Assembly: GCF_015767275.1 (NCBI RefSeq)
Contig: NZ_JADWMY010000001.1
Location: 744,001-808,000 of the forward strand
Length of the DNA stretch: 64,000 nucleotides
DNA from: Herbaspirillum sp. AP02
GTDB lineage: Bacteria > Pseudomonadota > Gammaproteobacteria > Burkholderiales > Burkholderiaceae_D
Direction: 5' to 3'
A program made the position numbers and the translations under genes. The notes beneath the pieces are model-generated. The model worked only from the letters and a program-made list of their open reading frames with translations. It made no database searches and had not been told where the DNA came from. This document shows, one piece after another, positions 8,092-19,495 of this stretch. Positions within the stretch are counted from its first letter, which is position 1, and each line of letters begins with the position of its first letter.

Positions 8092-9999
8092 TCAGGCTTT
8101 GGCGGCAACCTCATCCTTGAGGCGCTCCACCAAGGTGTCGATGGACATGACGCCCAGATCGACATTGCCCCGCGCACGCACGGCCACAGTGTTTGCATCC
8201 CGTTCTTTATCGCCGACAACCAAGATATAGGGCGGCTTCTGAATAGAATGCTGCCGTATTTTATAGGTAATCTTTTCGTTGCGCAAATCGGTCTCTACCC
8301 TAAACCCTTGTTTTTTCAGCGTTTGTGCAACGTTTTGCACATAATCCACTTGCGCGTCGGAAATATTCAGGATGACAACTTGTGTTGGCGCCAGCCACAA
8401 AGGCATCGCGCCAGCATGGTTTTCGATCAGGATGGCGATGAAACGCTCCAGCGAACCGACGATGGCCCGGTGCAACATCACAGGTACCTTGCGGTTGTTG
8501 TCCTCGGTGACATACTCGGCACCCAGGCGGGCTGGCATCGAGAAGTCCACCTGCATGGTGCCGCACTGCCAGGAGCGACCGATGGAGTCCTTCAGGTGGT
8601 ATTCGATCTTGGGACCATAGAAAGCGCCCTCACCCGGCAACTCCTCCCACTCCGAACCGGAGGCACGGATGGCTTCGCGCAGGGCGTTCTCGGCCTTGTC
8701 CCAGACTTCCTCGGCACCGATGCGCTTTTCCGGACGCAGCGCAAGCTTCACCGCGACTTCCTTGAAACCGAAGCAATCGTAGACTTCACGCACCACGCGA
8801 TTGAAGGCGGCCACCTCTTCCTGGATCTGGTCTTCGGTACAGAAGATGTGACCGTCATCCTGGGTAAAGCCACGCACGCGCATCATCCCGTGCAGCGCGC
8901 CCGAGGGCTCGTTGCGGTGGCACTGACCGAATTCGCCGTAGCGCAGCGGCAGGTCGCGGTAGCTGTGCAGGCCAGAGTTGAAAATCTGGATGTGGCCCGG
9001 GCAGTTCATCGGCTTGAGCGCGTAGGCCCGGTTTTCCGATTCGGTCGTGAACATGTTTTCACGATAGTTTTCCCAGTGGCCGGTCTTTTCCCACAGCGAA
9101 CGATCCAGAATCTGCGGTGCCTTCACTTCCTGGTAGCCGTTGTCCTGGTAGACACGACGCATGTATTGCTCGACCTGCTGCCAGATGGTCCAGCCCTTGG
9201 GATGCCAGAAGATCAGGCCCGGCGCCTCATCCTGGAAATGGAACAGGTCCAGTGCGCGACCCAGCTTGCGGTGGTCGCGCTTCTCAGCCTCTTCCAGCAT
9301 GTGCAGGTAGGCTTCCTGGTCTTCCTTCTTGGCCCAGGCGGTACCGTAGACGCGCTGCAGCATCTCGTTGTTGGAGTCGCCACGCCAGTAGGCGCCAGCC
9401 AGCTTCATCAGCTTGAACACCTTGAGCTTGCCGGTCGAGGGCACGTGAGGGCCGCGGCACAGGTCGGTGAAGCTGCCCTCGGTATAGAGCGAGACATCCT
9501 CGTTCTGCGGAATGGAAGCGATGATCTCGGCCTTATAGGCTTCACCGATGGATTTAAAGTACGCCACCGCCTCATCGCGCGGCAGCACCTTGCGGGTCAC
9601 CGGCTCATCCTTCTTCACCAGCTCGGCCATCTTCTTTTCGATGGCCTGCAGGTCTTCCGGAGTGAAGGGGCGCTTGTAGGAGAAGTCGTAGTAGAAACCG
9701 TTGTCGATGACCGGACCAATGGTGACCTGGGCGTCAGGGAACAGCTCCTTGACCGCATAGGCCAGCAGGTGGGCGGTGGAGTGACGGATCACCTCCAGGC
9801 CATCGGCATCCTTGTCGGTGATGATGGCCAGGTCCGCATCCTTGTCGATCAGGTAGGAGGTATCGACCAGCTTGCCATCGACGCGGCCGGCCAGGGCCGC
9901 CTTGGCCAGACCGGTGCCGATGTTGGCGGCGACCTGCGCCACGGTGACCGGGTTGTCGAACTGGCGTTGCGAACCATCGGGAAGACGAACTGAAACCAT
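8092..9999 (-). CDS. thrS: Threonyl-tRNA synthetase
   Basis: 635 aa from the ATG at 9999 ([11 protein letters not shown]), which follows GGAG at 6 bases. Domains in order: TGS (1-62), the N2 editing domain with '[19 protein letters not shown]' (about 70-220), the class II core with the zinc-site cysteine in '[13 protein letters not shown]' and motif 3 '[23 protein letters not shown]', and the anticodon-binding domain (about 530-635). It charges tRNA-Thr and clears mischarged Ser. It is the first gene of the thrS-infC-rpmI-rplT unit and is preceded by a 260-base leader carrying a threonine-rich leader peptide and a terminator. Confidence 0.98.
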
Positions 10000-10084: not shown

Positions 10085-10113
10085 AAAAAAAACGCGGACC
10101 AGCCGCGCTTTTT
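10085..10113 (-). terminator. Terminator in the thrS leader (candidate attenuator)
   Basis: Minus strand CGCGG-CTGGT-CCGCG (10093-10107) is preceded by AAAAAG and followed by eight Ts (10085-10092). It lies 23 bases past the stop of the Thr-rich leader peptide and about 85 bases before the thrS start, so it must be read through for thrS to be expressed. Confidence 0.8.
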
Positions 10114-10135
10114 CAAAGGACGAAAAAGAACCCGA

Positions 10136-10177
10136 CTAGCGTCGCGTGAAAACCTCGGTGGTAGTTCGCGGTGTCAT
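10136..10177 (-). CDS. Threonine-rich leader peptide of thrS
   Basis: A 13-codon frame, ATG at 10177 and TAG at 10136-10138, reads MTPRTTTEVFTRR: five Thr in 13 residues with three consecutive Thr codons (ACT ACC ACC). An AAAGG lies about 10 bases upstream of the ATG. It sits between a strong extended -10 promoter and the terminator at 10085-10113, the standard layout of ribosome-mediated attenuation. Inferred role: when charged tRNA-Thr is scarce the ribosome stalls on the Thr codons and the terminator fails to form, raising thrS expression. The exact antiterminator pairing could not be settled by eye. Confidence 0.7.
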   Translation of the reverse strand: MTPRTTTEVFTRR

Positions 10178-10266
10178 AACCGGTTTGCCTTTCTCGCTCT
10201 TACAGATGGGGATGCATTGATATTCGGGAAGTCGCCACCCGAAGGCAACCTCAACCATAGCTCGCT

Positions 10267-10272
10267 ATTATA
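10267..10272 (-). promoter_or_regulatory. Extended -10 promoter for thrS
   Basis: Minus strand TGCTATAAT: a perfect -10 hexamer (10267-10272) with the TGn extension. No good -35 is present at 16-18 bases, as is allowed for extended -10 promoters. Start of transcription near 10260 gives a leader of about 260 bases that includes the leader peptide and the terminator. Confidence 0.65.
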
Positions 10273-11361: not shown

Positions 11362-11438
11362 TGGTAGGCACGATTGGACTCGAACCAACGACCCCTACCA
11401 TGTCAAGGTAGTGCTCTAACCAGCTGAGCTACGCGCCT
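11362..11438 (-). tRNA. tRNA-Val(GAC), copy 2
   Basis: 77 bases with encoded CCA. Acceptor AGGCGCG/CGTGCCT, anticodon arm CTACC-TTGACAT-GGTAG giving anticodon GAC, and T arm with GTTCGAGTC. Identical to the copy at 11541-11617; the pair repeats with a period of 179 bases. Confidence 0.96.
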
Positions 11439-11540: not shown

Positions 11541-11617
11541 TGGTAGGCACGATTGGACTCGAACCAACGACCCCTACCATGTCAAGGTAGTGCTCTAACC
11601 AGCTGAGCTACGCGCCT
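11541..11617 (-). tRNA. tRNA-Val(GAC), copy 1
   Basis: 77 bases, same sequence as the copy at 11362-11438; anticodon GAC, encoded CCA. It lies directly downstream of a consensus-like promoter. Confidence 0.96.
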
Positions 11618-19175: not shown

Positions 19176-19235
19176 GCGTTGGAATGCACGGCCGCAGGCA
19201 GACTGCTCACGCAGGGCTGCCATGCCAGACATTCC

Positions 19236-19396
19236 GTTCTCTTTCATCCGGACTATGACCGTCGGCCCCGGGATCACACCGGGTCTGCTGACCCCGTCCC
19301 GCCACGATGGCAGGCCGGGCGCTCGCGGGCTACAGGCGAAGTCGGGTGACCTCGCCTGATTACCGCCGGTGGGGAGTTTCACCCCGCCCCGAGAAC
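19236..19396 (-). promoter_or_regulatory. FMN riboswitch (RFN element)
   Basis: The minus strand carries the conserved RFN segments in order: GGGGCGGGGTGAAACTCCCC, ACCGGCGGTA, AGCCCGCGAGCGC, the GGGGTCAGCAGACCCGGTGT arm, GCCGACGGTCATAGT, and CGGATGAAAGAGAAC. The P1 stem GTTCTC (19391-19396) with GAGAAC (19236-19241) closes the element. It binds FMN and represses the downstream riboflavin gene ribH. Confidence 0.96.
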
Positions 19397-19495
19397 TTGT
19401 TGCTGCGCAGCAGACAGTGAGCCCGCCACCGCAGCAGCCGCGACTTTAGCACGCATGGAAAATTGCTGCAGGCCACCGGCGCGTTGACTGAACCA

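Follow-up and report, generated by a model that had tools for sequence, protein, structure and literature searches.

A putative ribosome-mediated transcription attenuator upstream of thrS in Herbaspirillum and relatives across its order

In Escherichia coli, pheST is controlled by an attenuator in which PheM, a leader peptide rich in the cognate residue, acts together with a terminator to sense charged tRNA. The leader of the E. coli thr operon (thrL; Thr_leader in Rfam) controls biosynthesis genes and also reads Ile codons, and the thrS T-box of Firmicutes contacts tRNA directly through RNA, uses no peptide and works by transcription antitermination. Attenuators in proteobacteria were reportedly treated in a comparative study of 2004. 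The E. coli thrS gene has another arrangement: according to the relevant part of PMC3858243, ThrRS represses its own mRNA by binding hairpins and hindering ribosome binding. In the portions of a 2010 survey of premature terminators available to us (PMC2965389), threonyl-tRNA synthetase is named once, for E. coli. Titles and the opening parts of abstracts gave no description of a thrS leader peptide in the bacteria considered here, and an earlier mention is possible.

We analysed a 64,000-nucleotide stretch of the genome of Herbaspirillum sp. AP02 (hereafter the window), in which thrS very probably has a leader that acts as a ribosome-mediated attenuator, raising the synthetase when charged Thr-tRNA falls. 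All of the leader parts lie on the minus strand. An extended -10 promoter (TGC-TATAAT, 10267..10272), read from the sequence, is assigned to the leader transcript; a consensus promoter scan that required a -35 element listed nothing at this position. Downstream follow a presumed ribosome binding site, CGAGAAAGG (10188..10196), and the leader peptide frame MTPRTTTEVFTRR (10136..10177), which runs from an ATG at 10177 to a TAG stop at 10138-10136. Its Thr codons are ACA, ACT, ACC, ACC and ACG, with three consecutive at codons 5-7, and its conserved codon pair CGA-ACT (Arg-Thr; 10163..10168) is the presumed control codon. Between this frame and the structural gene stands an intrinsic terminator, CGCGG-CUGGU-CCGCG-U8 with an A/U extension (10085..10113), whose eight Ts occupy 10092-10085; such a placement, seen here in both sequence and folding, is characteristic of attenuators. 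The controlled gene, thrS (threonyl-tRNA synthetase, 8092..9999), has GGAG at 10009-10006 ahead of its ATG at 9999, and its product is 98-99% identical to matches in four genomes of its genus. Direct reading of the sequence bore out the positions that an earlier note on this DNA had given for the promoter, frame, terminator and thrS.

That note had not made out an antiterminator arm; one is present, and it covaries in relatives. Its outer helix joins GCUAGUCG (10140-10133), which overlaps the UAG stop of the leader frame, to CGGCUGGU (10105-10098), which is the terminator 5' arm plus loop, and its inner helix joins CUUUUUCG (10128-10121) to UGAAAAAG (10115-10108), with CUUUUUC (10122..10128) as the inner 5' arm and GAAAAAG (10108..10114), shared with the terminator A-tract, as the inner 3' arm. 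In folding of the window sequence the antiterminator reaches -18.4 kcal/mol versus -14.3 for the terminator, and the two are mutually exclusive. The terminator hairpin is matched in folding by 1 of 200 shuffles; folding of the whole leader is no better than that of shuffles (z -0.75) and is uninformative. An antiterminator that excludes the terminator and overlaps the predicted footprint of a ribosome at the stop codon is a further property expected of an attenuator, supported here by sequence and folding.

We propose that the thrS transcript begins with a ribosome-mediated transcription attenuator, in which a ribosome would translate a short peptide starting Met-Thr-Pro-Arg-Thr. With charged Thr-tRNA available, the ribosome would reach the stop codon and cover GCUAGUCG, so that no antiterminator could form, the terminator would fold and transcription would stop before thrS. 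With Thr-tRNA scarce, it would stall at Thr codons 5-7. Given a usual footprint, the leading edge of the stalled ribosome would extend to about nucleotide 31 of the frame at most, short of GCUAGUCG at nucleotides 38-45; the antiterminator could therefore form, occupying the terminator 5' arm and loop, and polymerase would continue into thrS and probably also into infC-rpmI-rplT.

Such a system would be like the pheST attenuator in having a cognate-residue leader peptide, a terminator, a synthetase gene as target and charged-tRNA sensing, but it has Thr in place of Phe, heads thrS and in many relatives is preceded by tRNA-Val. With thrL it shares Thr codons in the leader peptide and transcription attenuation, although thrL targets biosynthesis genes and responds to Ile as well. 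The E. coli thrS operator acts on the same gene and likewise exerts negative control in the 5' leader; there the ThrRS protein binds the mRNA, whereas here a translating ribosome would be the sensor and termination the output. The Firmicutes T-box also provides tRNA-dependent transcription antitermination upstream of thrS, but by direct tRNA contact without a peptide. Unlike thrL and the T-box, the window leader has no Rfam match at the gathering threshold, with Thr_leader and T-box included in the search; at E up to 5 the one hit was asX2, on the opposite strand (E 1.2, 15.8 bits versus 70).

The leader frame is widely kept in the window's family. Strong ThrRS matches occurred in 112 of the 116 family genomes and weak ones only in G007, G009, G051 and G105. 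With these four set aside, as well as G044 (start missing) and G066, we read 110 thrS upstream regions and found the frame in 97. For 89 of these, the search pattern had prescribed which residue types stood at codons 2-4 and which base opened codon 5, and eight were added by hand. Each of the 97 frames has an assigned terminator after it (set by hand in L048). Among the 13 regions in which the frame was not found, one (L099) is a short contig end and ten retain a CGCGG-type terminator. Frame length is 11 to 15 codons, and once 24. In 80 of the 82 leaders with a recognised box, a whole number of codons separates the ATG from the stop-codon box, and the linker 3' of the stop has no such reading-frame preference (30, 30 and 37 of 97). 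Third bases vary most at codons 6 and 7, codons 2-5 are nearly invariant, and codons 8-11 of the family leaders showed no clear coding-like pattern of variability. On the whole, in-register spacing and codon variability give the appearance of a translated frame. Eight mutually related family members have a TGA two codons early and nonetheless keep CGCUAGUCG behind it, and L066 reads the stop-codon box in another frame; because these leaders keep the box, it seems to be maintained as an RNA element as well.

Threonine ranks first among the 20 residues in a neutral enrichment test, in both the family and the order sets. At least three Thr within seven codons were found in 83 of 110 family regions, versus 2.2% of shuffles, and in 29 of 71 order regions with a terminator, versus 1.4% of shuffles. 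Codon 5 encodes Thr in 95 of the 97 family leaders, the remaining two having a shifted Arg-Thr pair. Codons 6 and 7 encode Thr in 69 and 71 leaders, so the run of three Thr codons, although present in the window, is not strictly conserved, and nine leaders have two Thr only. The expectation that Thr codons would be conserved in relatives thus holds for one Thr codon after Arg, and the number of further Thr codons varies. By conservation and composition the frame is nevertheless what an attenuator calls for, short and rich in codons of the regulating amino acid.

The Arg-Thr pair is more uniform than the rest of the peptide. Codon 4 is CGA in 93 of 97 family and 33 of 39 order leaders; ACT or ACG fills codon 5 in 95 of the 97, and the corresponding Thr position in 39 of the 39. 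Across all 136 leaders (97 from the family, two of them shifted, and 39 from the order), the pair always uses ACU or ACG for Thr and never ACC; the thrS gene of the window uses ACC for 21 of its 26 Thr codons. Since the searches themselves had set the residues in part (Arg for 89 family leaders, Thr when the order was counted), what counts as evidence is which synonymous codon is used. CGA codons are read by inosine.

Comparison with relatives, as the earlier note had suggested, shows that the terminator is kept and that the alternative stem covaries. Alignment A1 comprises 88 of the 97 leaders (eight near-identical rows and L068, which has an insertion, were omitted), and in it the presumed ribosome binding site is mostly at least 90% conserved. 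The two antiterminator helices have 87.2% of their cells paired; six slid registers give 43.9-52.9%. None of 500 shuffles equalled the helices in percentage paired, in double-change cells or in covariation score, and for the other two of the five measures 140 and 67 of the 500 did. In these and all other conservation and pairing tests, related rows are counted more than once. In 66 of 95 family leaders and 16 of 40 other order leaders, region 2 and stem 3 form a better duplex than 95% of shuffles. With stem 3 lengthened by two bases, this also holds for 7 of 7 named Burkholderia sensu lato, and support is weak in a named Sphaerotilaceae-like group (1 of 8), Cupriavidus (0 of 4) and a small Oxalobacteraceae set (4 of 17); without the two added bases, 6 of 10 leaders of the Burkholderia type and 0 of 6 of the Cupriavidus type pass. 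In a swap test pooling overlapping sets, 192 of 248 leaders paired better with their own stem 3 than with the median foreign stem 3, where half would be expected. Both sides of the antiterminator are rewritten by clade: the Massilia type pairs GCUAGACGCG with CGCGCCUGGU, the Burkholderia version UCGAGG with CCUCGA and, judged by eye, the distant member L096 AACCACG with CGUGGUU.

We also modelled the ribosome as a mask in the folding of shortened transcripts, with an assumed footprint from -13 to +15 of the P site and the stall placed at the first Thr codon from codon 4 onwards. For the window, the modelled terminator 5' arm was engaged at 0.84 with a stalled ribosome, 0.66 with a ribosome at the stop and 0.60 without one. 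Family means for the pairing of stem 3 were 0.69, 0.55 and 0.56 in the same three states, and the pattern set gave 0.70 when stalled versus 0.53 at the stop. With the linker (region 2) shuffled, the family states became nearly equal (0.69, 0.68 and 0.69). Since shuffled linkers also give 0.69 when stalled, natural linkers appear to lower the pairing at the stop or without a ribosome, and not to raise it in the stalled state. The modelled effect was larger than 0.2 in 34 of 95 leaders from the family, 6 of 38 from the order and 46 of 112 from the pattern set.

The first arm of the switch appears to differ among groups. In the window, CGAGAAAGG can pair with the U-rich UCUUUUUCG (10129-10121), and the two are paired in the whole-leader minimum free energy structure. 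The ribosome-site box and region 2 form a duplex better than 95% of shuffles in 34 of 95 leaders of the family and 7 of 17 named Oxalobacteraceae, and a duplex of region 1 with region 2 beats shuffles in 6 of 95 family leaders. In the window's family, the leader's ribosome-binding box may thus replace the classical first arm by pairing with region 2. In the named Comamonadaceae, the CGAAC hexamer serves as region 1 and forms a stem with GUUCGCG; this pairing beats shuffles in 16 of 27, and GUUCG is found in region 2 in 15 of 27 versus 1.3 expected. The same partner was found in 0 of 17 named Oxalobacteraceae versus 2.0 expected, and the evidence for it elsewhere in the order is weak (10 of 40 versus 4.6 expected). 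We rejected the hexamer as a universal region 1 for the window's family, where GUUCG is found in 4 of 95 leaders versus 13.3 expected. For a pairing of codons 3-5 with stem 3, the order gave no support (1 of 40 leaders) and the family little (12 of 95). For the test of this 1:2 stem, leaders were grouped by organism name, grouping by region-2 sequence being circular; the named groups covered 63 of 116 loci, with L207 (no terminator found) and L249 (linker too long) dropped and 51 left ungrouped.

The attenuator appears to be widespread. The earlier note had proposed a comparison across Oxalobacteraceae; judged by sequence, the attenuator is not confined to that family and is also present in other families of its GTDB order. 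We covered 85 of the 145 non-family genomes of the order and picked 40 leaders by eye; examples are MSFRTTTTGTLNLG, MFKRTTTTRISR, MFRTSTTTQS and VKHWRTTTTRYSHAC, each preceding a terminator and thrS. A 19-base leader core has exact matches on at least 119 contigs, and among the 119 matches listed a ThrRS start follows within 900 bases downstream in 116, the other three having too little downstream DNA. Genera among the 80 listed matches whose titles were read include Burkholderia, Paraburkholderia, Cupriavidus, Acidovorax, Variovorax, Comamonas, Rhodoferax, Roseateles, Massilia, Janthinobacterium and Herbaspirillum; one listed match (L208) is from a bin titled Alphaproteobacteria. The window's leader is nearly the same as that of a Herbaspirillum frisingense bin (L278). 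In the outgroup, for which we covered 28 of the 85 genomes that belong to the class but not to the order, a CGAAC-type motif within 350 bases was found in 0 of 28, and the Thr test was passed by 1 of 19 regions with a terminator. A near-match to the leader core in the window's own genome (57182, plus strand, one mismatch) showed no leader features by eye.

Autorepression of the E. coli type, in which ThrRS would bind tRNA-Thr-like hairpins beside the thrS ribosome binding site and block translation, is described for E. coli thrS in the pertinent part of PMC3858243, and the terminator loop CUGGU is, by eye, loosely like a Thr anticodon loop. That loop, however, varies (CUAGC, UUAGC, CUUG and others) in a way that fits pairing with region 2 better than anticodon mimicry. 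The terminators of L123 and L122 end 10 and 15 bases before thrS, so that no room is left for operator hairpins behind them, and autorepression would leave both the terminator with its T-run and the conserved frame unexplained; we consider it very improbable. It is just as hard to credit that the hairpin is the plain terminator of an upstream unit, with the frame incidental or marking a small RNA. It is true that a tRNA-Val(GAC) gene stands in the 600 bases preceding thrS in 61 of 110 regions from the family, 57 of 85 from the order and 21 of 28 from the outgroup, and the CGCGG-type terminators kept in ten of the 13 family regions without a found frame also suit this explanation. Yet a plain terminator gives no place to an in-register frame, Thr enrichment or antiterminator covariation, and in the window the tRNA-Val(GAC) genes (11362-11438 and 11541-11617) stand about 1.1 kb before the leader promoter, separated from it by a response-regulator-like gene and another hairpin terminator (10614-10587).

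The same attenuator might instead sense slow translation in general, or the Arg-tRNA that decodes CGA. The near-invariance of CGA ahead of the Thr codon (93 of 97; 33 of 39) and the presence of only one or two Thr in some leaders speak for this. Against it, Leu or Pro (CTG, CCG) replaces Arg in 5 of 39 order leaders, a comparison in which Thr is fixed by construction; Thr, and not Arg, stands far above shuffles; and thrS lies behind the leader core in all 116 judgeable matches among those listed. We therefore regard Arg or general sensing as improbable. Sensing of charged tRNA-Thr through a leader peptide, as the earlier note had surmised, is better supported, by the retention of the Thr codon and terminator and by antiterminator covariation. 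We infer that the frame is translated, that ribosomes stall on it and that readthrough responds to Thr-tRNA; the in-register frame, Thr enrichment, terminator, covarying antiterminator and association with thrS, all read from sequence, point this way.

The tRNA-Val neighbour bears on how the thrS attenuator may have arisen. In 28 of 40 order leaders the start codon lies 17 to 96 bases after tRNA-Val, and 10 of 28 outgroup regions have both the tRNA and a terminator, one of these terminators being the tRNA's own stem. In many relatives tRNA-Val precedes the thrS leader, and in outgroups it precedes thrS without a leader. The attenuator may have originated between the tRNA and its terminator. 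A fuller proposal, which we offer tentatively and think rather doubtful, is that the CGA-ACU/ACG pair, and not the run of Thr codons, is itself the sensor, with CGA in the P site making the Thr codon after it unusually sensitive to the supply of Thr-tRNA; that the switch was inserted between tRNA-Val and its terminator; and that, in relatives so arranged, the charging of Thr-tRNA would decide how the output of one promoter is shared between the tRNA and the thrS operon. In one family region out of 110, the gene in the 600 bases preceding thrS is tRNA-Thr(GGT) in place of tRNA-Val. In L082, one of the family regions without the frame, a ribosome-binding box is fused to the terminator about 150 bases ahead of thrS, which looks like an internal deletion between GAGAAAG and GAAAAAG that removed the sensor.

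Downstream of thrS the window carries infC, rpmI, rplT, pheS and pheT, named from their translations. The earlier note had suggested that all of these may partly share the control. For infC-rpmI-rplT this is probable; for pheST it is weakened by a GGGGC..GCCCCG hairpin with a T-run between rplT and pheS, found in 27 of 30 family loci (window 6600-6456, minus strand). Since this hairpin separates the two genes, pheST is probably partly insulated from the thrS leader. The hairpin itself is a candidate terminator or separate pheST attenuator. A Phe-rich frame runs in the window, in frame, from the hairpin into pheS; frames with at least four Phe were found in 14 of 30 loci and had no common sequence. 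In the single-contig genome G028 (C1:1782078-1783084) the pheS match is in three pieces, one with an internal TAA, reflecting either frameshifts or sequencing error. Elsewhere on the minus strand, the window has matches to the Betaproteobacteria toxic small RNA (Rfam RF02278; 55802-55867, 60.4 bits) and to the FMN riboswitch (19232-19400, 103.7 bits).

Leader-peptide attenuation is a known type of mechanism, and its use at thrS appears, from sequence comparison, to be both widespread and well supported. If this is right, a leader read by the ribosome would control an essential synthetase in many members of the order, at a gene for which E. coli uses a protein repressor, and would offer natural variants in which both competing stems have been rewritten together. 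The locus would then be a testable case of regulator replacement at one gene, and possibly of an attenuator originating from a tRNA terminator. The unexplained invariance of the codon pair bears on how control codons are chosen, and the thrS leader could act as a sensor of Thr-tRNA charging.
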